This document shows, in pieces, positions 627 through 10,893 of a stretch of 27,219 nt of DNA. Every line of letters begins with the position of its first letter. Positions within the stretch are counted from its first letter, which is position 1. The translations under genes and the position numbers were made by a program. The stretch lies in the IMG/VR virus record IMGVR_UViG_3300030090_002860, positions 1-27,219 of that record; one strand, 5' to 3'. Under the pieces are notes generated by a model. That model was not told where the DNA came from, did not search any database, and worked only from the letters and a program-made list of their open reading frames with translations. Origin of the DNA: a virus.

Positions 627-2328
627 AACTTTCTTTCCTTTCATTAGATAAAGCTTGGAAATATTCTTCATACACATCGAACTTATTAGACATTTTATGA
701 GCCAGGTGCTCCTCGACAGTGTCTTCAGCTCGGAGGGATATAGCAGGCACAACATGAGTTGAACCTACCCTACGAACACGACCACGACACTGTATGAACT
801 GTTGTAAGCTGGTTGGTTCCTGAGCAAATACAAGCAAACCAGCGTTAGTAAGAGACACAGATTCAGACATCGTGCCACTAGTACACACAAGAATTTTTCG
901 AATCAGATCATTAGTGTCTTGGAATCTTTTGATCATATACTCTCTAGTAATTTGTCTTGTATCACCAGTGATAAGATTAACCAAAAATTTCTGAGGCAAA
1001 CGTTCTTCAAGCGCACGGAAAAACATACCAGCAACTTTAGAATGCTCACAAAATACAAGAACATTGCAATCAACATCCTCAAGTAAATCAACCAGGGCAT
1101 CGACCTTCGCAGAAGGAGTAGATAAACCCATCACACGATTCGCATCATTTAAAATAGGTCTACCATTAGCCCACTGTCTAAGCTTAGTAAATTTATCCAA
1201 ATCATTTTTAGCTATAAGAATATTGTCATCCCAATCTGATATATAGGATTCCAACATTTGATCGTACCCTTGTCGCTGGAGTGTGTTTAAAGGAACTTTA
1301 ATGACAGTATGCGGGCCTTCTTCAGGTATCGTCATGCCACGCATAGCATAAGCAACATTTCTATCACCAAACTGATTATAACTAGTACGCCACCCACATA
1401 TCTGAAGATAATGCGTATGACCTGTCTCGTTCCAACCAACACAATCTAAACCACCGTGCCAGTTCTCACGCATATTAAGGAAACGTTCACGCCAAGCACT
1501 CAACGTAGGAAATTCTTTAGGTGAAAGGAACCGCCATTGCGCCCACAAATCTTCGGCGCTACCAGTAGTAGGCGTAGCAGTTAAGGCTATTCGTTTATCA
1601 GCATTATCAGCAAGAGTCCAGCAACAACGAGTACGCAAAGCCTTAGGGCTTTTAATCCTATGTGATTCATCGATAATAACCGAGTTATATTCGTGGAAAT
1701 CAAGTTCCCCTGCCGGAAGCTTTTTACTATTAGGCCAATGCCTACAACTAACATGCTTAATAAGGTTATCGTAAGAGATAATAACAAAATTAACATCCTC
1801 AACATGCTTTAACCTTTCCTCACGTTCTTTCTTCTCGCCAACAATAGTAATATAGTCAGCGCCAGGGAACACAGTCTCAATTTCTTTAACCCACACGGGG
1901 ATGGCAACCTTAGGGCAGACAATAATGTTAGGAGCTAGCCTAAAGTTATTACTTAAAGCACATAAAGCAGAACGAGTCTTACCTAAACCAGTGCCATCAT
2001 TAATAAACAAAGACTTATTCATGCACCCAGCATGAGCAAGCTTCTGACCAGTCCACCACTGATAACCAAACCACTCATCAGAATTATCAATAATACTTTT
2101 ACGAGCCTCTAACGATAAACGTTGCTCGCCCCATTCATGTATACGATCAATGCCCTCTTGGTTAATTCTTTCCGTATCATAATGATCAGACAAACGAATA
2201 TCCCAAGCGGAAAGATACGTATCAGGTAGTGTAACAAACTGATTTGCATGAGGAGTCTCAGTATATATACGCCAATCCCTTATACCAGGTCGATACTCGA
2301 CAATATCATTTTTCTTCAACTGGAACAT
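619..2328 (-). CDS. SNF2-type superfamily II DNA helicase (569 aa)
   Basis: ATP-dependent DNA helicase or translocase for phage replication or recombination, acting in the cytoplasm. Visible motifs in order: Walker A GTGLGKT (112-118), DESH box (220-223), motif III LTATPTTG (249-256), motif V-like SVSLTNAGLLVFAQ (490-503) and motif VI QCRGRVRRVG (513-522), i.e. both RecA-like domains are complete. The DESH box and Q-x2-GR-x-R-R motif fit SNF2-like phage helicases. The ATG at 2328 is preferred because a GGTGGT purine run lies upstream; a longer version from a TTG at 2388 is possible but overlaps the small gene ending at 2306 much more. The gene overlaps both neighbours, so it is embedded in one operon. 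Confidence 0.93.
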   Translation of the reverse strand: MFQLKKNDIVEYRPGIRDWRIYTETPHANQFVTLPDTYLSAWDIRLSDHYDTERINQEGIDRIHEWGEQRLSLEARKSIIDNSDEWFGYQWWTGQKLAHAGCMNKSLFINDGTGLGKTRSALCALSNNFRLAPNIIVCPKVAIPVWVKEIETVFPGADYITIVGEKKEREERLKHVEDVNFVIISYDNLIKHVSCRHWPNSKKLPAGELDFHEYNSVIIDESHRIKSPKALRTRCCWTLADNADKRIALTATPTTGSAEDLWAQWRFLSPKEFPTLSAWRERFLNMRENWHGGLDCVGWNETGHTHYLQICGWRTSYNQFGDRNVAYAMRGMTIPEEGPHTVIKVPLNTLQRQGYDQMLESYISDWDDNILIAKNDLDKFTKLRQWANGRPILNDANRVMGLSTPSAKVDALVDLLEDVDCNVLVFCEHSKVAGMFFRALEERLPQKFLVNLITGDTRQITREYMIKRFQDTNDLIRKILVCTSGTMSESVSLTNAGLLVFAQEPTSLQQFIQCRGRVRRVGSTHVVPAISLRAEDTVEEHLAHKMSNKFDVYEEYFQALSNERKESYG

Positions 2329-2470
2329 ACCTATGCACCACCCTTTCGTTACTAGTAATAAAAACATCTTCAGTGTGAAGAGTGTCAATTAAATTATTTA
2401 TATCAGTGTCTACGTTCTTATTAGACTGAGCTTCATACTTCATAAGTATCGTCAATTCAATAGCATCCAT
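2306..2470 (-). CDS. Small protein of unknown function (54 aa)
   Basis: A short gene starting MDAIELTILMKYEAQ and ending VPVEEK. The ATG at 2470 has AAGGATAAGTA upstream, a good Shine-Dalgarno, and it overlaps the stop of the preceding gene by one base (TAATG), the spacing used elsewhere in this operon. Its 3' end overlaps the helicase start by 23 nt in another frame. No domain is recognised; it looks helical and hydrophilic. Support comes from the ribosome binding site and the tight packing rather than from homology. Confidence 0.6.
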   Translation of the reverse strand: MDAIELTILMKYEAQSNKNVDTDINNLIDTLHTEDVFITSNERVVHRYVPVEEK

Positions 2471-2658
2471 TACTTATCCTTCTTCCACACAAAGTTACGT
2501 AGATCACTACGAAACGCAAATGCTTTAGCAAACTGCTCAGTAATCTGCCCCATAAGCTTCTGCATTATGTCTTCAAAGATAAGAATAACCGCCAACCTAA
2601 AGACAGGATCAGAGGCCCTCTCTTCAGCTTCAGTTTGGATATCTTTATATGCACCCAT
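2470..2658 (-). CDS. Small helical protein of unknown function (62 aa)
   Basis: The start ATG at 2658 is preceded by AAAGAAAGGAAAAGATT, the standard ribosome binding site of this arm. The protein (MGAYKDIQTEAEERASDPVF...) is predicted by eye to be helical, with an amphipathic segment (FRLAVILIFEDIMQKLMGQI) and a lysine-rich end. No family recognised. It lies between the RuvC-like resolvase gene (26 nt gap) and the 54-aa gene (1-nt overlap), in the same operon. Confidence 0.65.
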   Translation of the reverse strand: MGAYKDIQTEAEERASDPVFRLAVILIFEDIMQKLMGQITEQFAKAFAFRSDLRNFVWKKDK

Positions 2659-2684
2659 AATCTTTTCCTTTCTTTATTGTTTCT

Positions 2685-3155
2685 TTATTTTCTCAAATTT
2701 TTTATATACTCCCTGGACACATTACTATCAGGTTTATGGGACAAATGATGTCGCACAATATGGCGCATCGCATCATTAGCATGACGCATACTAGGCGTAT
2801 ACAAACCCATAGCTTTTAACGGGGGGTTCTTAATAGTCTTTCCTTCCGAAGGGGACTGAGGATACAAACGTATACCCAGCCACAAATCAAACTCGACAGT
2901 AATCCAACCAATAAGATGCAAAGCATCAAACACACCAGTGTTGCCAGCTTTTAATGTCCTATCCCCAATGTAAAATGTTTCATACACAAGCTCGATAAAC
3001 TGACCCTCACAATGCCTGCGGAGCCAGTGTGCCGCATCATGAGGGCCAGAGACTTGATCATGGGCGGCTATCCAGCCATCACCAGTTTCTCTAAGGACAG
3101 CTAAGCCAGTAGTAGAACCAGGGTCTACACCAACATATGTCCTCGGTAATGTCAC
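2685..3155 (-). CDS. RuvC-like Holliday junction resolvase (156 aa)
   Basis: RNase H-fold endonuclease expected to cleave branched DNA made during phage replication or recombination. Evidence is the N-terminal strand YVGVDPGSTTGLAV with catalytic Asp 11, a central strand LVYETFYI with Glu 59, and a C-terminal HANDAMRHIVRHHL with Asp 128, which is the acidic triad of RuvC-like nucleases in phages. Length is normal for the family. The only possible start is the GTG at 3155: an in-frame TAA lies just upstream. There is no clear Shine-Dalgarno. A perfect TATAAT on the minus strand (3164-3159) ends only 3 nt before the GTG, too close to serve a leaderless start at that codon. The gene follows directly after the structured non-coding stretch. 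Confidence 0.85.
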   Translation of the reverse strand: MTLPRTYVGVDPGSTTGLAVLRETGDGWIAAHDQVSGPHDAAHWLRRHCEGQFIELVYETFYIGDRTLKAGNTGVFDALHLIGWITVEFDLWLGIRLYPQSPSEGKTIKNPPLKAMGLYTPSMRHANDAMRHIVRHHLSHKPDSNVSREYIKNLRK

Positions 3156-3177
3156 ATAATTATATTAGCGAATACCT

Positions 3178-3879
3178 GAAGTAATAGGGGACACCTCCCT
3201 GAATCCCCTTATCAGAGGCTCTGGGATCTGGTGGGACATATTCGTCAAAGACTTGTACAGTACTTTGCTTTGCCGGATACTAACCGCTAAGTTTTCACCA
3301 TGCACACTGGATGATCAATCCGTCCTTTATTACATTCCCCTATTACTTCCTTCGGCATCAGAGGACCGGAACGCTTGACATGTCCAAAGGTCCTGCGTCT
3401 TGAGCCGAAGCGATCTTAAATTTTAAATGTGAGTGTGGATCTACCATGGAAAACACCCTTATGCCACTGAAATGTGGACTTACGAGGGATTAATACATGT
3501 AACCCGTTCACAATGGCGCTTCCACCACCACCGTCCATTATGGGTAGATCTACTGTCATGCACTACAGCCGGAGGAATATTCTCATATAGGACCATCCTC
3601 TCCATCACTCAACTAGGCTCGCAGGTCGTGTCTACGTTGAGCACAAGCTTGCGACTTTACCTGGGCCTAGAACTTTTAGAGCTGTTATTTAGTCTCTCCT
3701 TACCTGTCTGCGACGACTCTCAGGGCATTGGACACACGTGATTAAGTATACTTTCCACTCCTAAACACATTTAACCTATTAAGGCACTCTATGTCGCACA
3801 ATTAGCTCGTTTACCAAGTCTACCTTGCACGACGATTTAAATGGCAGGGAAACGGAGGGAGTACAACGCTTCCCTGCCA
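3178..3879 (-). ncRNA. Candidate large structured non-coding RNA (about 700-770 nt)
   Basis: Bases 3156-3925 hold no credible gene. Read on the minus strand the stretch is dense in complementary segments: a 10-bp stem 3842-3851/3870-3879; a 9-bp stem 3793-3801/3825-3833 enclosing a smaller hairpin; nested 3613-3618/3665-3670 and 3622-3626/3659-3663; a hairpin 3572-3600 with a GAGA loop; long-range 3438-3445/3543-3550 enclosing 3475-3479/3533-3537; 3350-3356/3404-3410 enclosing a possible pseudoknot; and a perfect 14-bp helix 3178-3191/3336-3349 around a multi-hairpin domain. Several stems use G.U pairs that exist only on the minus strand. Size and phage context resemble large ornate RNAs such as GOLLD and ROOL, but no conserved motif of these could be confirmed. 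Exact ends and promoter are unknown; it may be cut out of the operon transcript. Confidence 0.7.
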
Positions 3880-3925
3880 GCCGACGGGGAAATAGAAAGG
3901 TGTAACTAAACCCGCCGACGAACAA

Positions 3926-5068
3926 CTACACTAATGCTTTAGCATGCTCAATAGCTGAATCATCAAGCGACTGAGCAACATCATTAGGTACATAATCTTT
4001 CTGCGAATACGAAGTAATAGCCTGAGCTACACCAAACGCAGTCAAATCAGTACCCATAACAAAGTCATCAAAGATACCCATAGCGACATCATCATCGAAT
4101 GCCGTCTGCAAATAAGTATTAACAACTTGAACGCCGACAGGTTTCTTCAAACCTTGAAGCTCATTCACCTTAGCCTGAATAAAATCAGGATGAGCTATCT
4201 CAACAACCTTGTCAATAGTTTCAGATGTAATCAACTCAGTAGTCGCACGTAACGTACGCTGAGAAACAACACCAGATTCTAAACTAGCACCAAGGTGAAC
4301 CTTACGATAAATATCTTCAGTCAATGTCATGCCATTATCACAAACTTTAATGATAACAGAAGGCACAAGACTGAAAGCACCAGCGCCAACCTCAGAGTTA
4401 CGTATCTCAATACCCATAAACACAATGGGGTTATCAATGCCACGATGACCAGTAAACGGTGACGTGTAATTACGCAACAATTCCTCAGCTACCACATGCA
4501 ACTGAGGTATGTTAATACGAGCACGCATTTGCGTATCGCTAACAGATGCAGGGCCAGGCTCAAAATCAATACCATGTTCTTCACGAACAGCTTTAAAACC
4601 CTCGAAAACAGCGGCAAGAATATCAAAATTCTCAATAATACTGTAACTAGGAGAAACAACAGCACGGCAAAAGAAATCTCTACCATTAGGGTCAATCAAA
4701 CCACGCAACATAACATCACGTTCTTCTACCCGATTGGTAGTATTCATAATTTCTTTAGCCAACTCAGGATAAGCATAAGTTTCATGACCAACAAGCTTAG
4801 ACATATACTTAGCTGGAACATTAAACTTATGACACCACTGACGCAAAGCATGAGGCGTCAACTCCCAATCACGAGGGGGTAAACCCACGCCTTCCGAAGT
4901 TAAAACGTCACCTATCTCAGGAGTACGAAGAAAACCAGGTACATGACTGACCAAATCCTTCGTATTCACCACAATATCGTGGCGAGCATCCCGAACAGCT
5001 GACAAATTTTCTTTCAGCTCACTAAAGGTAATATTTTTACCCCTAGTTTGCTCTATAATACTAGACAT
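3926..5068 (-). CDS. DUF932-like phage protein (380 aa)
   Basis: The start is the ATG at 5068, with AGAAAGGACAAAAT upstream; the frame stays open for 18 codons above it but these read as a lysine run through the ribosome binding site. The sequence has the usual course of DUF932 / phage-plasmid-like proteins: ELTPHALRQWCHKFNVPAKYM near residue 75-95, then LRGL..., RAVVSPSYSIIENFDILAAV, a GIEIRNSEVGAGAFSLVPSVIIKVCDNGM segment, and a helical C-terminal half. Family assignment is by pattern memory, moderately sure. Molecular role is not established; these genes usually sit with phage replication or recombination genes, as here. The gene ends immediately before the structured RNA region. Confidence 0.75.
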   Translation of the reverse strand: MSSIIEQTRGKNITFSELKENLSAVRDARHDIVVNTKDLVSHVPGFLRTPEIGDVLTSEGVGLPPRDWELTPHALRQWCHKFNVPAKYMSKLVGHETYAYPELAKEIMNTTNRVEERDVMLRGLIDPNGRDFFCRAVVSPSYSIIENFDILAAVFEGFKAVREEHGIDFEPGPASVSDTQMRARINIPQLHVVAEELLRNYTSPFTGHRGIDNPIVFMGIEIRNSEVGAGAFSLVPSVIIKVCDNGMTLTEDIYRKVHLGASLESGVVSQRTLRATTELITSETIDKVVEIAHPDFIQAKVNELQGLKKPVGVQVVNTYLQTAFDDDVAMGIFDDFVMGTDLTAFGVAQAITSYSQKDYVPNDVAQSLDDSAIEHAKALV

Positions 5069-5099
5069 ATTTTGTCCTTTCTTTTTTCTATATTTTTTC

Positions 5100-5396
5100 T
5101 TATTCTTCTTGATCATCTTCAAGAAGAACAGACCATATTAACTCAACACTAGGATTATCATCAATTTGATTGATAAAATCTATGATAGTACTGTCATTAG
5201 CTGTTTTAATTAACAAATCACGGAACATTTCACGCAATTCAACAGCTTTCCCATACGTTTTAGGCGAAACATCATCATCAGACGAAACTTTAGCAAAAAA
5301 CATAAACTGTTCCGCAAGAGCCACCTGAATAGAGATTAATTCGTCCTCAGTCAACGTAATTGAGTAATTTCCATCATTATTTATGAGCAAAACCAC
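5100..5396 (-). CDS. Acidic protein of unknown function (98 aa)
   Basis: Start GTG at 5396 with AAAGGAGAAAAT upstream. An overlapping ATG two bases earlier opens only a five-codon frame, so the GTG is chosen. The protein has a predicted strand then helices (ITLTEDELISIQVALAEQFMFF...) and a very acidic C-terminus (LLEDDQEE). No family recognised. The end lies 31 nt before the DUF932-like start, so both are probably co-transcribed. A possible promoter lies about 70 nt upstream in an AT-rich gap. Confidence 0.65.
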   Translation of the reverse strand: MVLLINNDGNYSITLTEDELISIQVALAEQFMFFAKVSSDDDVSPKTYGKAVELREMFRDLLIKTANDSTIIDFINQIDDNPSVELIWSVLLEDDQEE

Positions 5397-5461
5397 ATTT
5401 TCTCCTTTCTTTTTCTTTTAATTCTTTTAATTTAGACACAAAACGTACCACAATCACCAAA

Positions 5462-5490
5462 AAAATATCAACTTTTGTCTACACCATCAA
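5462..5490 (-). promoter_or_regulatory. Possible sigma70-type promoter upstream of the 98-aa gene
   Basis: On the minus strand TTGATG (5490-5485) is followed after 17 nt by TATTTT (5467-5462), about 65 nt before the GTG at 5396. It sits just downstream of a terminator-like hairpin, where a new transcript would be expected. Both hexamers match only partly and the region is AT-rich, so chance matches are likely. Confidence 0.3.
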
Positions 5491-5519
5491 AAGCCTGTGA
5501 CCAGCACAAACAGCACCAA

Positions 5520-5565
5520 TAGTAATAATAATAATAATAAATAGACAAAATAATAATAATAATAA
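5520..5565. repeat. Two TAA trinucleotide tracts
   Basis: Two runs of the trinucleotide TAA/ATA (about 5521-5541 and 5549-5563) flank the short segment ATAGACAAAA, in the 226-nt gap between the 98-aa gene and the zinc-ribbon gene. The unit TTTTGTCTA occurs three times nearby: two direct copies (within 5471-5481 and 5615-5625) and an inverted copy (5542-5550). On the minus strand the first tract forms the U-rich tail of the adjacent hairpin. Confidence 0.7.
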
Positions 5566-5610
5566 GGGTACTAGGTAGTGTGTTAACTATTGGAGGCCTA
5601 CCTAGTACCC
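5566..5610 (-). terminator. Terminator-like hairpin, 13-bp perfect stem
   Basis: GGGTACTAGGTAG (5566-5578) is exactly complementary to CTACCTAGTACCC (5598-5610), with a 19-nt loop. On the minus strand it follows the zinc-ribbon stop codon by 12 nt and is followed by repeated TTA ending in TTTT, a U-rich though interrupted tail. A terminator for the upstream minus-strand operon is the simplest reading. The stem is not especially GC-rich, so an RNA processing site or a protein-binding palindrome remains possible. Confidence 0.6.
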
Positions 5611-5622
5611 AAAAACTTTTGT

Positions 5623-5787
5623 CTAATGGCTATCCGACCAATTCGCACCACCACAAAACTTACAATCAGGATAATCCTTAAACACACGATCAGAATAAAT
5701 AGCACGACAATCCAAACACCTCACCCAAAACTTAGCCTTCTTATAACCCACACGCTTAGGCTTCTCAACATCAAAATCAAAGTCCAT
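5623..5787 (-). CDS. Zinc-ribbon mini-protein (54 aa)
   Basis: Two knuckles, CLDC and CKFCGG, separated by about 16 residues, form a treble-clef or rubredoxin-like zinc ribbon; the rest is basic N-terminally (KPKRVGYKKAKFWVRC). The ATG at 5787 is chosen because GGAG lies 5 nt upstream; a start at 5814 is possible but lacks a ribosome binding site. The start overlaps the end of the transglycosylase gene by 11 nt, so the two are coupled. Likely binds nucleic acid or a protein partner through the zinc site; that is inference from the fold only. Confidence 0.7.
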   Translation of the reverse strand: MDFDFDVEKPKRVGYKKAKFWVRCLDCRAIYSDRVFKDYPDCKFCGGANWSDSH

Positions 5788-6181
5788 AACAACTCCAATG
5801 TTGCCAACCACCATGACGAGCAGTCAACAACCAAGCCGAAGCAAAAATATTAGCAACAGGATTCAAAGGCGAATACCCAGGCATACCAATAGCCTCAGCA
5901 CGAGCATCCCACCACCTAGGCATATGTTGCATGAGCCCAGAAGCTTGATCCTTAGGATTATCATAAACCCGATCATTAACAGCACTAGGATCACCACGAG
6001 ACTCACAATGCATCACACGCATAAACGTATCAAACTCCTCAGGAATGCCATACACCTCCAACGCAAGCTCCACAATAGGCGCCCAACGATCAACATCATG
6101 ACCCCAACGCTCATAATCATTAGCCTGCATCATCGCAGAAGGCATCCAAGGGACACAAAAAAACCATAATAAATTTAACAT
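5777..6181 (-). CDS. Lytic transglycosylase-like muramidase with N-terminal signal (134 aa)
   Basis: A small SLT/lysozyme-fold enzyme expected to cleave the peptidoglycan glycan strand. MHCESRGDPSAV carries the catalytic Glu (residue 60), followed by ASGLMQHMP (81-89), the GLMQ motif of the transglycosylase family, and a C-terminal GGWQHWSCYGL. The first 20 residues (MLNLLWFFCVPWMPSAMMQA) look like a short signal sequence or membrane anchor. The start ATG at 6181 has GGAG at good spacing; the longer open frame upstream runs through strong hairpins and is not believed. Found in the early arm, away from the M15-type endolysin at 16491, so it may be a virion-entry or accessory lysis enzyme. Confidence 0.82.
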   Translation of the reverse strand: MLNLLWFFCVPWMPSAMMQANDYERWGHDVDRWAPIVELALEVYGIPEEFDTFMRVMHCESRGDPSAVNDRVYDNPKDQASGLMQHMPRWWDARAEAIGMPGYSPLNPVANIFASAWLLTARHGGWQHWSCYGL

Positions 6182-6223
6182 ACTCACTCTCCAAATAATC
6201 GCTAGGGCTACTATCCTTGCATG

Positions 6224-6373
6224 GCTTACGAACGTATGCGAGGAGCGTAGCAATGAACTTGAAAGACTCTCCATTGCGGAGTTGGAGAGCCTTACTAGAG
6301 AACTATGCGGAGAAAGCAACAAACCACATAGTTCTCTAGTAAAGGGGCAGAAGGATGGGGGATCCTCCTGCCC
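6224..6373 (-). other. Cluster of four hairpins in a 200-nt intergenic region
   Basis: The gap between the transglycosylase start and the DUF669-like stop contains successive inverted repeats: GCTTACG/CGTAGC (6224-6230/6246-6251, one bulge), CTCTCCA/TGGAGAG (6267-6273/6283-6289), a perfect 16-bp pair (6292-6307/6327-6342, 19-nt loop), and GGGCAG plus GGAT pairing with ATCC plus CTGCCC (6345-6373). The last one follows the DUF669-like gene by 8 nt on the minus strand and could terminate it, although its trailing U tract is only CCTTT. The rest may form a structured leader for the transglycosylase mRNA. The stems are seen directly; the role is inferred. Confidence 0.6.
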
Positions 6374-6381
6374 ACGATACA

Positions 6382-6843
6382 TCAGCTATCGCTGGAAGCA
6401 CGAGTCACGCCACTCCACTCATAACGAGGGAAGATGCGCCCATCAGTGCCTTCCTCATGATCTACCACATAGACAGAAGCCTCAGTGATGGATTCTAGGT
6501 CAGACGCTATAGCATTAAGGTCACCAGACTGGATAAGTTCAGCAGGTACGCCAAGTGCAAGCAGTCGCTCAATAGTAATACGAGTACCAGTAGTAGAGGT
6601 AGTAGAGAAGGTAAAGTTCTCAAAGTGAGCAATACCCTCAGCGCCCTCACTGGACACATTACTAAAGCCTAGAAGGATAGTAGGATTGCCTGAACGAGAT
6701 TCTTTAACTCGTGCGAACTCAATGTTCACATAGAAGTCAGAACCCATATCAGGAACAATCTCCATATCTCCGCCACGGACATAACCGTCAGGCAGGTCAG
6801 AAGTATCCGACATAGCTTGGTTGATAAGGTCAGCAATATTCAT
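6382..6843 (-). CDS. DUF669-like, possible ssDNA-binding protein (153 aa)
   Basis: The start ATG at 6843 is preceded by AAAGGATATTCCT. The middle of the protein (FYVNIEFARVKESRSGNPTI, then LLGFSN and AHFENFTFS) resembles DUF669 and related phage OB-fold proteins, in which a strand with K-x-S-x-S-G-N-P is typical and which are often linked to single-strand DNA binding or annealing. The acidic C-terminal half ending DSITEAS-like and ASSDS would fit an SSB-type protein-interaction tail. The assignment is by pattern memory, not by search. Its neighbours include recombination and replication genes, in agreement. Confidence 0.5.
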   Translation of the reverse strand: MNIADLINQAMSDTSDLPDGYVRGGDMEIVPDMGSDFYVNIEFARVKESRSGNPTILLGFSNVSSEGAEGIAHFENFTFSTTSTTGTRITIERLLALGVPAELIQSGDLNAIASDLESITEASVYVVDHEEGTDGRIFPRYEWSGVTRASSDS

Positions 6844-6867
6844 AGGAATATCCTTTCATTATATTTT

Positions 6868-7056
6868 TTAAAATGGATCAAGTGCAGATACATCCAAAGG
6901 CGCATCACACACAAGATCACTAAGCTGGGCTACCGATTTGATAACCCAACGAATTTGCGGACAATTCTCAATAGAACGATCCGAAGAATAATTGATAAAT
7001 GCACTACGACATTCATACAATGCAATAACTAACTTAATTACATCTTCATCAGTCAC
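6868..7056 (-). CDS. Small protein of unknown function (62 aa)
   Basis: Starts with GTG at 7056, with AAAGGATAAGT upstream. A helical, mildly acidic protein (MTDEDVIKLVIALYECRSAF...) with three cysteines and no recognisable domain. It lies 24 nt upstream of the DUF669-like gene and 13 nt after the lipoprotein gene, in the same operon. The strong ribosome binding site is the main support. Confidence 0.6.
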   Translation of the reverse strand: MTDEDVIKLVIALYECRSAFINYSSDRSIENCPQIRWVIKSVAQLSDLVCDAPLDVSALDPF

Positions 7057-7069
7057 ACTTATCCTTTCT

Positions 7070-7399
7070 TTAATTCTTACAATTTATTATTTTACTTTTT
7101 ACTTCAATTCTTTTATTACTTCTATAATCAGTGCGGATAGGTAGATATGTAATTTCTCTACCTTCTAAATGCGACCTAAGGCACATCATCTGTAATTGAC
7201 CGTGCGGTAGGTCTACACTTATGTCCAGGTAATTAAGAACGTCAGCAGTAATACCATTATTAAGTTGTACTGTGTTAGAGTCCAAGACCTTCACGACTGT
7301 TGCGACACAGTACGGATTGCAAATAGGTTGCACTGTGTCGCACGCAGTCGACAATAGAAAGGTCAGGAAGATCGCTAACGTTTTGCACGTGGCGGACAT
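7070..7399 (-). CDS. Putative lipoprotein with degenerate thermonuclease-like fold (109 aa)
   Basis: The N-terminus (MSATCKTLAIFLTFLLSTAC) is a lipoprotein signal peptide with lipobox LSTAC and acceptor Cys 20. The mature part begins VATVVKVLDSNTVQLNNGITADVLNYLDI, matching the first strands of the staphylococcal nuclease OB fold (V-x-x-V-x-D-G-D-T-x-x-L...G...V-x-L-x-x-I) but with the active-site G-D-T changed to S-N-T and no R-L-x-G-I-D-A-P-E motif. The nuclease activity is therefore probably lost. It could be a surface lipoprotein displayed on the infected cell. The start at 7399 has AAGGGTAA upstream; it overlaps the 32-aa gene by 25 nt. Confidence 0.6.
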   Translation of the reverse strand: MSATCKTLAIFLTFLLSTACDTVQPICNPYCVATVVKVLDSNTVQLNNGITADVLNYLDISVDLPHGQLQMMCLRSHLEGREITYLPIRTDYRSNKRIEVKSKIINCKN

Positions 7400-7473
7400 T
7401 TACCCTTGGGGCATTTACAGTTGACATACCTGCCAATCTTGCCGTCACGATTTTTAAATACTAATGGTTTCAT
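7375..7473 (-). CDS. Cysteine-rich basic mini-protein (32 aa)
   Basis: A 32-codon frame starting MKPLVFKNRDGKIGRYVNCK and ending in a basic tail, with three cysteines spaced C-x-C-x4-C (residues 19-26) among Lys and Pro. The ATG at 7473 is preceded by AAAGGATAATGT, the normal ribosome binding site of this arm, and the gene directly follows a terminator plus dyad that seem to start a new unit. It overlaps the lipoprotein start in another frame. Reality rests on the ribosome binding site and position, with no known homologue recalled. Confidence 0.5.
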   Translation of the reverse strand: MKPLVFKNRDGKIGRYVNCKCPKGKCPPRAKR

Positions 7474-7513
7474 ACATTATCCTTTCTTTTATTTACACTA
7501 CTTTTTTATTTCT

Positions 7514-7528
7514 ATTACTTGTTGTAAC
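7514..7528 (-). promoter_or_regulatory. Dyad element E0 with ACAACAA core
   Basis: On the minus strand GTTAC-AACAA-GTAAT, a 5-bp dyad (outer G.U) placed directly after the terminator of the 293-aa gene and about 40 nt before the start of the 32-aa gene. It is a diverged member of the series found before the small genes further right: the arm sequence differs but pairing and the ACAACAA centre are kept. Confidence 0.45.
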
Positions 7529-7534
7529 GAAAAG

Positions 7535-7556
7535 AGGGAGAGCCGAGGCCCTCCCT
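7535..7556 (-). terminator. Intrinsic terminator after the 293-aa gene
   Basis: On the minus strand AGGGAGGGC and GCTCTCCCT form a 9-bp stem, including one G.U pair, closed by a CTCG tetraloop and followed by CTTTT. It lies 7 nt after the stop codon of the 293-aa gene. Its design matches the terminators at 8952, 9226 and 9470. Confidence 0.75.
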
Positions 7557-7563
7557 GATTCCG

Positions 7564-8445
7564 TCATGACCAGTCTTCCTCCATAAGCTCAGCTATGGAC
7601 AATTCCTCGTCAATGTCTTGATGGATACGGTTAGTCTCACGTGTCTTACCTTTGGAGGTAATGACTTTGCGAGTTTCTTTCTTGACATCTTTCGATTCAT
7701 CAATAAAGAAATCGTTTGTCAACTGATACAAGCCGGACTCAATCAACTTGGATTGAGTGTCATCGGTATCCCACAAGGTTTCGTCACGAGATTGCTTTTG
7801 GTTGCGATAAACACAAGCCATGTAATTCTGACTTAACCTGACGAATACGTTGAGCCAGTGATCACCTGCAACTATGTTGCTGAATCCAATAGGCTCAAAT
7901 ACGTATTTGTGTGGACGACCTTGACGGTCCTTTTTGATAGTGCCACTTGCAAGGTTATCGTAGAGTGGGTGGTTAAAAGCTTTGCCATCGTTCTCGTAAA
8001 TACGAGCAACAATGATTGCTTTGCCACGATACTCTGGAGACTTGCCACTGACAAAGTGCCAGTAGTCAATAACTCGTAACTGATAACCTAACAGAGTGCC
8101 AACAACTTCTGACATGTCGATAGTCTCGAAACTGACTGAGACTTGATCAATCCAGAAATTCTTGACTGGATCATCGTCAGTGAAGTTGCGATTGATAAGA
8201 CCATTGTTATCGTAATAACTCATGTCATTATCACGCTCATCAGTTTGCGTGACCCATGTTCTGCCGAACAATAAGCCTTTGTTTGACATCATCTCGTTAT
8301 AAGGACCATAACGTTCAGGGTCGCCAGAGTCACGATCTGCAAAACCGTGAAGAGCTGACAACGACGCTACGACTTCCTGAGAGAAGTTAGCAAAAGCTTC
8401 GTCGGGTGGCGTTTCAGTTCCACCATCATATGTTTGATATACCAT
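7564..8445 (-). CDS. Unknown phage protein (293 aa)
   Basis: Start ATG at 8445 with AATAGAAAGGTAATAC upstream. The protein is hydrophilic and acidic at both ends (TPPDEAF near the start, ELSIAELMEEDWS at the end), with a central part rich in aromatic residues (YYDNNGLINRNF, NFWIDQVSVSFE, LRVIDYWHFV) that suggests a folded mixed alpha/beta domain. No catalytic motif, signal peptide or membrane segment is visible and no family is recognised. It forms its own transcription unit: a structured 96-nt element precedes it and an intrinsic terminator follows. This unusual leader suggests post-transcriptional or attenuation control. Confidence 0.75.
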   Translation of the reverse strand: MVYQTYDGGTETPPDEAFANFSQEVVASLSALHGFADRDSGDPERYGPYNEMMSNKGLLFGRTWVTQTDERDNDMSYYDNNGLINRNFTDDDPVKNFWIDQVSVSFETIDMSEVVGTLLGYQLRVIDYWHFVSGKSPEYRGKAIIVARIYENDGKAFNHPLYDNLASGTIKKDRQGRPHKYVFEPIGFSNIVAGDHWLNVFVRLSQNYMACVYRNQKQSRDETLWDTDDTQSKLIESGLYQLTNDFFIDESKDVKKETRKVITSKGKTRETNRIHQDIDEELSIAELMEEDWS

Positions 8446-8463
8446 GTATTACCTTTCTATTGA

Positions 8464-8559
8464 ATAGCCGTATTGCAACGGCATGTGGGTTTGGAAACAG
8501 CGCCACCGGCGTGAGCCGGTATACTTGCGCCCAAACCCTTGCCGTTCCGCAGGGGCTAT
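8464..8559 (-). ncRNA. Compact rod-like structured leader or small RNA (96 nt)
   Basis: Six nested stems fold the whole segment into one rod: ATAGCC 8464-8469/GGCTAT 8554-8559; TGC 8474-8476/GCA 8549-8551; AACGGCA 8477-8483/TGCCGTT 8540-8546; GGGTTTGG 8487-8494/CCAAACCC 8531-8538; GCGC 8500-8503/8527-8530; ACCGGC 8505-8510/GCCGGT 8515-8520. That is 34 Watson-Crick pairs. On the minus strand it ends a few bases before the ribosome binding site of the 293-aa gene, as a 5' leader. A competing hairpin GCCGT/ACGGC (8467-8471/8478-8482) would break the rod, a switch-like arrangement. The apical loop reads GTGA (GNRA) on the plus strand and TCAC on the minus, so strand is not certain. No known riboswitch class was recognised. 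Confidence 0.65.
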
Positions 8560-8570
8560 AGTTAATGAAT

Positions 8571-8586
8571 GTACACATGCGTGTAC
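8571..8586 (-). promoter_or_regulatory. Dyad element, GTACAC-N4-GTGTAC
   Basis: A perfect 6-bp dyad placed between the T tract of the terminator at 8593 and the rod-like leader. The outer arms are the same as in the other dyads, but the centre on the minus strand is GCAT instead of the conserved ACAA. Confidence 0.55.
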
Positions 8587-8592
8587 AAAAAA

Positions 8593-8614
8593 TGGGAGGA
8601 CAAATGCCCTCCCA
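8593..8614 (-). terminator. Intrinsic terminator after the 92-aa gene
   Basis: TGGGAGG (8593-8599) pairs exactly with CCTCCCA (8608-8614), with an 8-nt loop. On the minus strand it is followed by six T residues and lies 7 nt after the stop codon of the 92-aa gene. Confidence 0.8.
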
Positions 8615-8621
8615 AGATTTG

Positions 8622-8900
8622 TTATTGCTCTTTATAGATACCGAGTTGCAAACCGAGTTTGTACTCTTTTTCTTCCCAAATCGCTAGGTCTCTTTCTAGC
8701 TTTTTGTTCAGATGCATTTGTTGCTTGGATACCTCAAGACATTGACGAAGCGCTGTTTCAAGCTCGTCAATCCTATTCTGACGATACTTGGCTACTTCGA
8801 GCGCAGTACGTCTACGAGCAAAACATAGAGGGTAATGTCCCCACCATGCCATATGCATTAGGACTTTTTTGTTTTCCCAAGCTTTATATCTCTTAAACAT
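8622..8900 (-). CDS. Coiled-coil protein of unknown function (92 aa)
   Basis: Start ATG at 8900 with AGAAAGAAAGAATA upstream. The N-terminal third is basic and aromatic (MFKRYKAWENKKVLMHMAWW); from about residue 35 a long amphipathic helix with leucine spacing (IDELETALRQCLEVSKQQMHLNKK...) predicts a coiled coil. No family is recognised. It is a single-gene unit bounded by the dyad at 8928 upstream and its own terminator downstream. Confidence 0.65.
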   Translation of the reverse strand: MFKRYKAWENKKVLMHMAWWGHYPLCFARRRTALEVAKYRQNRIDELETALRQCLEVSKQQMHLNKKLERDLAIWEEKEYKLGLQLGIYKEQ

Positions 8901-8927
8901 ATTATTCTTTCTTTCTATTTTTTACTT

Positions 8928-8945
8928 ATACACCTTGTTGTGTAC
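8928..8945 (-). promoter_or_regulatory. Dyad element E1, ACAACAA core
   Basis: On the minus strand GTACACAACAAGGTGTAT: 6-bp arms with a terminal G.U pair around the conserved core, joined directly to the T tract of the terminator at 8952 and followed by TATAAG. It lies 28 nt before the start of the 92-aa gene. Function as an operator, as part of a promoter or as an RNA hairpin cannot be told from sequence. Confidence 0.6.
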
Positions 8946-8951
8946 AAAAAA

Positions 8952-8973
8952 GGGGAGAGCTCACGCCCTCCCC
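8952..8973 (-). terminator. Intrinsic terminator after the 66-aa gene
   Basis: On the minus strand GGGGAGGGC and GCTCTCCCC form a 9-bp stem (one G.U) closed by a GTGA GNRA tetraloop and followed by six T residues. It begins 7 nt after the stop codon. The same hairpin is repeated exactly at 9226-9247. Confidence 0.85.
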
Positions 8974-8980
8974 AAATTTG

Positions 8981-9181
8981 TTAGCCGTGATACCTGTTAA
9001 GCAAGATATAATGGCGCTCAACGAATAGATCATCAAGAGTGATGTACACAAACTTGCCTAATCTAGTTTCCTTTTCGGATGCCCACCAGCAATGGCGACA
9101 CTCGAATTGGAATTGCATGAGGGCATTTCTCCAACACAAGAGCAAATGCCACTGAAGCTCTTCTATAAATTTGTTAAACAT
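8981..9181 (-). CDS. Small protein of unknown function (66 aa)
   Basis: Start ATG at 9181 with AATAGAAAGGTTAAC upstream. Rich in Trp, Cys and Leu in the first half (LQWHLLLCWRNALMQFQFEC) and more polar later; not clearly a membrane protein. The pattern C-R-x(2-3)-W-x2-E...G-K-F is loosely shared with the 56-aa product of the next unit, hinting at distant paralogy. Single-gene unit between a dyad and a terminator. Confidence 0.6.
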   Translation of the reverse strand: MFNKFIEELQWHLLLCWRNALMQFQFECRHCWWASEKETRLGKFVYITLDDLFVERHYILLNRYHG

Positions 9182-9201
9182 GTTAACCTTTCTATTATTT
9201 T

Positions 9202-9219
9202 ATACACATTGTTGTGTAC
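9202..9219 (-). promoter_or_regulatory. Dyad element E2, ACAACAA core
   Basis: On the minus strand GTACACA-ACAA-TGTGTAT, 7-bp arms (terminal G.U), continuous with the T tract of the terminator at 9226 and followed by a TATAAAATAAT stretch that could serve as a -10. It lies 21 nt before the start of the 66-aa gene. Confidence 0.6.
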
Positions 9220-9225
9220 AAAAAA

Positions 9226-9247
9226 GGGGAGAGCTCACGCCCTCCCC
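9226..9247 (-). terminator. Intrinsic terminator after the 56-aa gene
   Basis: Identical in sequence to the terminator at 8952-8973: a 9-bp stem with a GTGA loop on the minus strand and six following T residues, 7 nt after the stop codon of the 56-aa gene. The duplication of terminator plus dyad suggests that whole cassettes were copied. Confidence 0.85.
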
Positions 9248-9254
9248 AAATTTG

Positions 9255-9425
9255 TTAGCCAAGTTCGATGTCGTGGAAATGACGACCGTACTTAACTTCC
9301 CAACTCCATTCCTCGATACGGCATACAAGCAGTATCCAGTTTATGTAAAGTAAGGATAACCTAATTCGGAAGATTCTATAATCCATCTTCCACATGGCTA
9401 GCTTAAACTTTATAAGTTCTAACAT
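9255..9425 (-). CDS. Small basic-aromatic protein of unknown function (56 aa)
   Basis: Start ATG at 9425 with AATAGAAAGGTTAAT upstream; the frame is open further but there it runs back through the dyad, the terminator and the previous gene. The protein has a hydrophobic centre (LSLLYINWILLV, about residues 23-34) flanked by basic residues and could be membrane-associated; the end is acidic-aromatic (EEWSWEVKYGRHFHDIELG). Unknown family. Own dyad and own terminator. Confidence 0.55.
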   Translation of the reverse strand: MLELIKFKLAMWKMDYRIFRIRLSLLYINWILLVCRIEEWSWEVKYGRHFHDIELG

Positions 9426-9445
9426 ATTAACCTTTCTATTATTAT

Positions 9446-9463
9446 GTACACATTGTTGTGTAC
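9446..9463 (-). promoter_or_regulatory. Dyad element E3, ACAACAA core
   Basis: On the minus strand GTACACA-ACAA-TGTGTAC, a perfect 7-bp dyad, adjoining the T tract of the terminator at 9470 and followed by ATAATAATAG and the AGAAAGG ribosome binding site of the 56-aa gene. Confidence 0.65.
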
Positions 9464-9469
9464 GAAAAA

Positions 9470-9491
9470 GGGAGGAACCGAGGTCCCTCCC
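9470..9491 (-). terminator. Intrinsic terminator after the 93-aa gene
   Basis: On the minus strand GGGAGGGAC and GTTCCTCCC form a 9-bp stem with one G.U pair and a CTCG loop, followed by five T residues, 7 nt after the stop codon. The stem differs from its neighbours in sequence while keeping pairing. Confidence 0.8.
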
Positions 9492-9498
9492 AAAATCG

Positions 9499-9780
9499 TT
9501 ACCGACAGGAATCGTCGGCAAGGTCAGCGCAACCGCAACGAACTGCTTCGTCACGACTGACAACTGCACCAATACATGTACAACTAACGTGGCCTGCAAA
9601 CAGATCCAAGAAGTCGTACGCAATACCATCCACTATGGCGTGGTCGGCAAGTACAGGTCTAACCATGTTGCTTTCTCCTTTCTTATTTATTTCTTTACCT
9701 TTCCGTATTGCACTAGCAAGGTCTAAACGTCCTTGCTTAGTCACAGGAAAAGGGTCTGACCGATATGGTAGACGTGGCAT
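9499..9780 (-). CDS. Cysteine-containing protein of unknown function (93 aa)
   Basis: The start is taken as the ATG at 9780, with AATAGAAAGGTGCATAGTT upstream. A second, stronger ribosome binding site (AAAGGAGAAAGCAAC) precedes an in-frame ATG at 9666, which would give a 55-aa product MVRPVLADHAIVDGIAYDFL..., so two isoforms or a shorter true gene are possible. The C-terminal part has paired cysteines (SCTC, CGC and a late C) that might bind metal. The N-terminal part is basic. No family recognised. Confidence 0.55.
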   Translation of the reverse strand: MPRLPYRSDPFPVTKQGRLDLASAIRKGKEINKKGESNMVRPVLADHAIVDGIAYDFLDLFAGHVSCTCIGAVVSRDEAVRCGCADLADDSCR

Positions 9781-9804
9781 AACTATGCACCTTTCTATTA
9801 ATAA

Positions 9805-9822
9805 GTACACGTTGTTGTGTAC
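9805..9822 (-). promoter_or_regulatory. Dyad element E4, ACAACAA core
   Basis: On the minus strand GTACAC-AACAAC-GTGTAC, a perfect 6-bp dyad, continuous with the T tract of the terminator at 9830 and followed by TTATTAATAGAAAGG, the ribosome binding site of the 93-aa gene. Confidence 0.6.
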
Positions 9823-9829
9823 AAAAAAA

Positions 9830-9848
9830 GGAGGGCTAGATGCCCTCC
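9830..9848 (-). terminator. Intrinsic terminator after the 68-aa gene
   Basis: GGAGGGC (9830-9836) pairs exactly with GCCCTCC (9842-9848), with a 5-nt loop. Runs of seven A and seven T flank it, so on the minus strand it has a seven-T tail, and it could work in both directions. It lies 6 nt after the stop codon of the 68-aa gene. Confidence 0.85.
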
Positions 9849-9854
9849 CTTTTT

Positions 9855-10061
9855 TTATCTGCTCATCCTTTCGTAGAATAGATCAATAATAAACTTTGCA
9901 ACTCGTGGACTGATGTGACCATCATCCTCAAGATCCATAATGTCAGACTCAAACAGCATCATTTGAAGCTCGTTGTCTGGAATTTCCAAGGGGTGAACCC
10001 CACGGATCCTATTGCGCCAAGAGGCTAGAAACCTTTTGACTAAGTTGAATAAAGATAACAT
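9855..10061 (-). CDS. Small protein of unknown function (68 aa)
   Basis: Start ATG at 10061 with TATAGAAAGGAATAC upstream. The N-terminal 20 residues (MLSLFNLVKRFLASWRNRIR) form an amphipathic basic helix that may bind membrane or nucleic acid; the remainder is acidic (MLFESDIMDLEDDG) and ends FIIDLFYERMSR. No family known. Unlike the next four units it has no dyad upstream, and it follows the 89-aa gene by 31 nt, so these two probably share the first transcript of the left arm. Confidence 0.6.
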   Translation of the reverse strand: MLSLFNLVKRFLASWRNRIRGVHPLEIPDNELQMMLFESDIMDLEDDGHISPRVAKFIIDLFYERMSR

Positions 10062-10092
10062 GTATTCCTTTCTATAATGTTAAACGTTAGGG

Positions 10093-10362
10093 CTACACTT
10101 CACGACGGACGTAACGAGTAGGCCACCACGCTGAGGCTTTTGCCTCCGAGGAACGAGGCCACCGCTTGGCGCTTTTGTCAAGTCGAACAACTTTCTTACA
10201 TGGCTTACTAAGTTCGACTTTATAAAAGCGCCTCCACATAACAAACAACGTTAAGCAGAACAGGGTTACTAAGAGGGCTGTCTGATTCGGAACATAATGG
10301 ACAAAAGGCTCTGTGGTGGTCTGCGAAGTTACAGGGGGTGTAGTCGTGAAAGTGTAGACCAT
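10093..10362 (-). CDS. Small single-pass membrane protein (89 aa)
   Basis: First gene of the left arm. Thr/Pro-rich N-terminus (VYTFTTTPPVTSQTTTEPF), one hydrophobic segment (ALLVTLFCLTLFVMW, about residues 29-43), then a long basic tail (RRFYKVELSKPCKKVVRLDK...). The positive tail after the segment predicts N-out/C-in topology. ATG at 10362 has only a weak AGG upstream. Role unknown; it could modify the host membrane early in infection. Confidence 0.55.
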   Translation of the reverse strand: MVYTFTTTPPVTSQTTTEPFVHYVPNQTALLVTLFCLTLFVMWRRFYKVELSKPCKKVVRLDKSAKRWPRSSEAKASAWWPTRYVRREV

Positions 10363-10383
10363 CAGCCTAGGTCACAGCACTCT

Positions 10384-10420
10384 CACACAACAATTGACTA
10401 GATTCGGCTTTTGTTGTGTG
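10384..10420. promoter_or_regulatory. Divergent-arm inverted repeat, candidate operator
   Basis: CACACAACAA (10384-10393) and TTGTTGTGTG (10411-10420) are perfect complements separated by 17 nt, in the short space between the two divergent arms. The core CACAACAA is the same as in the dyads before the small left-arm genes, which suggests that one factor recognises all of them. A -35-like TTGACT lies inside the repeat (10394-10399). Confidence 0.6.
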
Positions 10421-10423
10421 GTG

Positions 10424-10452
10424 TTGACGTTTTGTTTGTCCTGAAGTATGTT
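10424..10452 (+). promoter_or_regulatory. Promoter for endonuclease VII gene, possibly leaderless
   Basis: TTGACG (10424-10429), 17-nt spacer, TATGTT (10447-10452). A start site seven bases after the -10 falls on 10459, the first base of the GTG codon proposed for the endonuclease. This would give a leaderless mRNA and would explain the missing Shine-Dalgarno. It lies immediately after the inverted repeat at 10384-10420, whose right arm ends 3 nt before the -35. Confidence 0.5.
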
Positions 10453-10458
10453 CTAAGT

Positions 10459-10893
10459 GTGGCTACGTCTGATTTTGTTGATAAAAATTTAAAATTTTGT
10501 AGGTATTGCCAGGAGTGGAAGTCTGAGTTTAAGGATAATCAGACGTATTGTGATTCGTGTTGGAAGGTGTATAAGCGTCGGCAGTATCATATTGCGAAGC
10601 ATAAGACTCGTTTGATGGTTGCTCAGGGTGGTCATTGTAAGATTTGTGGTGCGGATTTTGCGTATATGTCTTCTGGTAAGATTCATGTGGATCATTTGCA
10701 TGGTGATCGTTATTTGATTCGTGGGTTATTGTGTTTGCATTGCAATTCTGTGTTGGGGCATTCTTTGGACCGCCCCGATATTTTGCGTAAGGCGGCGGAT
10801 TATTTGGAGGCGACGGAGGCTCGCCCGTTGGAAGATATTTTGGAAGAGCTTGATATGAAGGAATCTGCGAGTAAACTAAAAGGTGTATTCTAG
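10459..10893 (+). CDS. Endonuclease VII-like junction resolvase with zinc ribbon (144 aa)
   Basis: Treble-clef/HNH nuclease of the T4 gp49 type, which resolves branched DNA before or during packaging. Motifs: a first cysteine pair set C14-x2-C17 and C31-x2-C34 (additional N-terminal zinc ribbon), then C60-x2-C63, HVDHLHG with H76, D78 and H79, and IRGLLCLHCNSVLGH with C92-x2-C95-N96, followed by a helix (PDILRKAADYLEA). The GTG at 10459 is chosen because the promoter start site coincides with it; upstream in-frame TTG codons overlap the promoter. First gene of the right arm, next to the packaging genes. Confidence 0.85.
   Translation: MATSDFVDKNLKFCRYCQEWKSEFKDNQTYCDSCWKVYKRRQYHIAKHKTRLMVAQGGHCKICGADFAYMSSGKIHVDHLHGDRYLIRGLLCLHCNSVLGHSLDRPDILRKAADYLEATEARPLEDILEELDMKESASKLKGVF

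Follow-up and report, generated by a model that had tools for sequence, protein, structure and literature searches.

The window analysed here is a stretch of 27,219 nucleotides from a virus (IMG/VR record IMGVR_UViG_3300030090_002860, positions 1 to 27,219). The full virus record comprises 44,003 bases and encodes a terminase, a portal protein, a major head protein and a tail fibre. The window contains a minus-strand operon that starts with small genes. One of the operon genes (7564-8445, minus strand; start codon beginning at 8445) encodes a 293-aa protein to which no function is assigned. No relative of this protein is found in Pfam, PHROGs, NCBIfam, PDB or phage records, and none is among its 21 pattern matches in genome_contigs. 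Its AlphaFold model is uninformative (mean pLDDT 34). Relatives with 95-96% identity are encoded by two IMG/VR contigs, L005 and L006, and the same two contigs are recovered when the product of the next gene (109 aa) is used as the query.

Terminator-palindrome units and the 293-aa gene leader

The intrinsic terminator of the gene upstream (8587-8614, minus strand; 9-bp stem, T6 tail) is followed directly by the palindrome GTACAC-N4-GTGTAC (8571-8586, minus strand), a small hairpin or operator whose stem is retained and whose loop is altered in L005 and L006. This arrangement, a GC stem with a T run and then a GTACAC...GTGTAC-type palindrome, precedes five minus-strand operon genes, the palindromes before the other four lying at 8928-8945, 9202-9219, 9446-9463 and 9805-9822 (minus strand). 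A ribosome-binding site, usually AATAGAAAGG, comes after each unit. The five similar units (8571-9822, minus strand) separate small early genes. When L005 and L009 (the contig of L006) are compared with the window, whole gene units are present or absent, as if the terminator-palindrome units were exchange points. A search of viral_contigs for the terminator-palindrome pattern returned 22 stretches; 20 of them are new loci, and none of these 20 resembles the window unit.

Between the palindrome and the ribosome-binding site of the 293-aa gene stands a 96-nt imperfect hairpin (8464-8559, minus strand), here called the rod. Because it occupies this position at the 293-aa gene only and is missing from the other four units, the rod seems to be a module that was added to this gene alone. 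It ends 5 bases short of the Shine-Dalgarno sequence AGAAAGG (8452-8458, minus strand), which lies outside it; an earlier reading of the sequence alone (the sequence-only reading) had likewise placed its end just ahead of the ribosome-binding site. That reading also took the rod to be the entire leader. This is overstated, as 141 nt separate the T run of the upstream terminator from the start codon and include the second small hairpin (8586-8571), but the rod does represent a structured leader element. Five strong minus-strand terminators lie upstream of the rod, and one further terminator-like stem follows the 293-aa gene (7535-7556, minus strand).

Predicted fold of the rod

The 34 Watson-Crick pairs in six nested stems that had been proposed for 8464-8559 are borne out exactly. 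In minus-strand order, the stems pair 8559-8554 with 8469-8464 (6 bp), 8551-8549 with 8476-8474 (3 bp), 8546-8540 with 8483-8477 (7 bp), 8538-8531 with 8494-8487 (8 bp), 8530-8527 with 8503-8500 (4 bp) and 8520-8515 with 8510-8505 (6 bp), and several asymmetric internal loops interrupt the helix. The minimum free energy (MFE) of the minus-strand RNA is -50.7 kcal/mol (z-score: -5.25), a value matched by none of 200 shuffles and by none of 5,000 dinucleotide shuffles in a separate set. The fold is genuine: the 96 bases ahead of the gene form one long hairpin. When both strands of the window are scanned in 100-nt windows, a single non-overlapping place is listed whose fold is stronger (-53.0 kcal/mol; from 6379 on the minus strand).

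That place belongs to a second, stronger structured leader (6400-6185, minus strand; -53 kcal/mol per 100 nt) that contains an 18-bp hairpin and precedes a transglycosylase (SLT) gene. The called start of the 201-aa ORF behind it is probably too early, with the true start near 6182. Although L009 and L005 have the same leader, it is followed there by a different lysis-like protein; apparently, the leader was conserved and the gene after it exchanged.

As the 293-aa gene is read from the minus strand, its mRNA carries the minus-strand form of the rod. The apical loop of this form is UCAC; the GNRA-type loop (GUGA) belongs to the plus-strand form only, as had been noted. The plus-strand RNA also folds (MFE: -48.5 kcal/mol; z-score: -4.0), with one of 200 shuffles as good; this fold and the GUGA loop would suit a small RNA made from the plus strand, whether antisense or free-standing. 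Its z-score is weaker than that of the minus strand, no plus-strand promoter-like site is listed at 7961-9171, and no terminator-like site directly follows apart from the terminator of the upstream gene in reverse orientation. On the mRNA strand of both L005 and L006 the apex of the rod is CAAG, so the GNRA loop of an antisense RNA is not kept. An antisense origin, raised in the sequence-only reading, is therefore barely credible.

The same reading pointed to GCCGT/ACGGC (8467-8471/8478-8482) as an exclusive alternative to part of the rod, as in riboswitches or attenuators. This sequence does exist, and by our own reading the L005 arms (GCCGT and ATGGC) are still pairable via G-U, but as a competitor it is thermodynamically negligible. 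When the alternative 5-bp hairpin (GCCGU/ACGGC; 8467-8482, minus strand) is forced, the energy is -42.3 rather than -50.7 kcal/mol (8.4 kcal/mol worse); its pair probabilities are 1e-6 to 2e-6, and it is predicted not to form. The Shine-Dalgarno sequence lies outside both folds, neither of which masks the ribosome-binding site. There is no expression platform, the sole nearby terminator preceding the rod. With the alternative so much weaker, the Shine-Dalgarno sequence uncovered and no terminator after the rod, a riboswitch or attenuator is not supported and is considered highly improbable.

The rod also belongs to no known RNA class, as had been suspected: the covariance models of Rfam 15 give no matches in the window at the gathering score. 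With E-values of up to 10, seven sub-threshold matches are found at 8440-8640, none of which spans the rod; one of them, to rpsL_pseudo, overlaps the first 14 nt of the rod and scores 18.4 bits (threshold: 70). The rod is not a terminator, having no T run after it and being followed by TCAATAGAAAGG, and it is not a perfect inverted duplication, being broken by several asymmetric internal loops.

The rod hardly changes the accessibility of the start region. In predictions that omit the palindrome, the mean unpaired probability of the Shine-Dalgarno sequence is 0.73 when the rod is present and 0.69 when it is absent, and that of the start codon in the window sequence is 0.86 and 0.85, respectively. 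The right arm of the palindrome is able to pair with the start region in the window sequence; the rod does not. With the palindrome included, the start codon of the window is unpaired with a probability of 0.09 with the rod and 0.43 without it. The corresponding values are 0.74 and 0.92 in L005 and 0.45 and 0.72 in L006. Because these two genomes do not repeat the window values to the same degree, the pairing of palindrome and start region carries little weight.

Distribution and conservation

The rod is at the same place in both IMG/VR contigs that encode a relative of the 293-aa protein. DNA pattern searches of viral_contigs with the left half, the right half and the core with a variable apex each return only these same two contigs. 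A terminase search yielded 45 loci, of which only L009 carries both the gene and the rod. Both are missing from the long relatives L016, L017 and L021, which reach into the corresponding region; most of the other terminase loci are too short to judge. One of the sequences collected, L054, has an open frame of 2,927 aa in its late region (1809-10592, plus strand) without a Pfam or PHROGs match.

A covariance model of the rod (R1), searched with E-values of up to 10 against 54 sources (the window, L009-L054 and L075-L081), matched nothing other than the known copies in either orientation, and thus gave no second copy in the DNA examined. One 3-pair helix of this model is off by one column; the pair counts given below use the corrected helix. 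Two sets of candidates were rejected as chance. Five matches to the core pattern in genome_contigs have surroundings that form no rod, and a stretch in the operon leader of L009 (6564-6546) that agrees with part of the rod at 17 of 19 positions has a BLAST E-value of 0.37 and no covariance-model match. No publication on the element was among those listed in literature searches. In the DNA examined, the rod is present only with the 293-aa gene, and the gene is always found with the rod. The two occur together in three genomes of one marine phage lineage, which represent two distinct variants (L005 and L006 are nearly identical, differing by 1 nt over the 882-nt gene).

Compared with the window, the L006 rod has three substitutions and a 2-nt deletion, and the L005 rod has five substitutions and the same deletion. 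The differences fall in the apical loop, an internal loop and the helix ends. The helices themselves are nearly invariant: 34 of the 37 modelled pairs are identical in the three genomes, and the three that vary are at helix ends. None of the 37 pairs has compensatory changes on both sides, a count drawn from only three close sequences of two variants; the structure is therefore not proven by covariation. The downstream gene has a dS of 0.127, from which approximately 11 differences would be expected in an unconstrained rod (11.3, our own rough estimate). Rough Poisson probabilities are 0.004 for three or fewer differences and 0.03 for five or fewer. These figures speak modestly for purifying selection on the rod. 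A point against such selection is that the rod as a whole (94-96% DNA identity) does not clearly exceed the 2.5 kb around it (94.2%).

The lack of covariation and the restriction to a single lineage leave room for a chance fold without function. As none of 5,000 shuffles reaches the MFE and the helices are almost unchanged at a dS of 0.127, this explanation has very little to recommend it. Another is a DNA-level element, such as a site for recombination or replication or a protein-binding hairpin, that lies in the leader by chance. In its favor, both strands fold well and gene content near the rod differs among genomes, but the minus-strand RNA folds better, and its G-U pairs are kept by all three sequences. 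The exact placement between the terminator-palindrome unit and the ribosome-binding site and the single copy in the DNA examined also argue against a DNA-level element, which is regarded as improbable.

The main rival to a structural leader hairpin is a protein-binding operator, in which an RNA-binding protein of the phage or the host (the 293-aa product being one possibility) would bind the internal loops and adjust translation. The stems are invariant in sequence as well as in pairing, the asymmetric internal loops of the upper rod are unchanged in all three genomes, and the rod accompanies this one gene. The rod does not, however, overlap the ribosome-binding site, and nothing in the family, PDB and AlphaFold searches marks the 293-aa protein as RNA-binding. 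An operator is thus rather unlikely, if still a credible reading.

Candidate roles of the rod and related leaders

Structured nascent RNA can also act on transcription. HK022 put, as described in PMC9378689, is about 70 nt long and has two stem-loops. Like the rod, it is a nascent phage RNA with a structure of its own and belongs to an operon that has many terminators, and the five strong terminators before the 293-aa gene and the terminator-like stem after it make a read-through device plausible. A put-like antitermination RNA would bind RNA polymerase as nascent RNA and let it pass later terminators. The rod, in contrast to put as described there, is one continuous hairpin, and it is sited after most of the terminators; the five strong ones lie upstream, beyond the help of a cis-acting RNA. 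The rod is therefore very unlikely to act in this way. A better candidate for a put-like RNA is the long non-coding structured operon leader at 10062-10450 (minus strand), because terminators follow it. It contains a 21-base inverted repeat that is 90% complementary (10168-10188/10212-10232).

The motifs GTAAGCC and GCCCT recur together just before start codons in several otherwise unlike non-coding leaders (in the window at 10208-10093 and 6229-6210, minus strand, and in L009, L016 and L017). No consistent fold was found for these leaders, and the strict pattern occurs in three contigs of viral_contigs, one of which is that of L016.

Candidate structured 5' leaders are known from marine phages, namely the manA and wcaG motifs (PMC2864571). 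The rod is similarly a structured leader in a marine phage, but it matches no Rfam family. It could be the first one seen of a phage leader RNA class not yet recorded, with an irregular upper helix recognized by a phage protein or the transcription machinery and timing the expression of a lineage-specific gene, but this is decidedly unlikely.

Hairpins of the RNase III type that serve in processing or stabilization occur in phage and bacterial mRNAs, for instance in the early mRNA of T7. Like these and the hairpin of E. coli betT (PMC4067347), the rod is a long hairpin with imperfect pairing inside the message of a phage or bacterium. The betT hairpin lies inside the coding region, whereas the rod is in a 5' leader. 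Tentatively, and with somewhat less than even confidence, we favor a cis-acting hairpin that the mRNA of the 293-aa gene carries in its 5' leader and that acts constitutively through its structure instead of switching with a ligand. It may serve processing, stability or spacing. In favor of a leader hairpin are the fold beyond chance, the open start region, the invariant pairs, the lower than expected number of differences and the tie to one gene; against it are the lack of covariation, an identity near that of the flanks and the limitation to two variants.

The proposed model for the leader hairpin is as follows. The minus-strand message would arise in one of two ways, by read-through of the terminator at 8614-8593 or by initiation at a promoter within or close to the palindrome. 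The rod would fold as soon as it is transcribed, and the resulting stable double-stranded 5' structure may serve as an RNase III type processing site, as protection of the 5' end or as both. The Shine-Dalgarno sequence and start codon would be left single-stranded, such that the gene could be translated from its own message.

By itself, the rod opens no long-standing question. If functional, it would add a compact 5' mRNA element to a phage group in which early genes are arranged as small units that are closed by terminators and trailed by palindromes, and it would shed light on the expression and exchange of individual genes within such a series.
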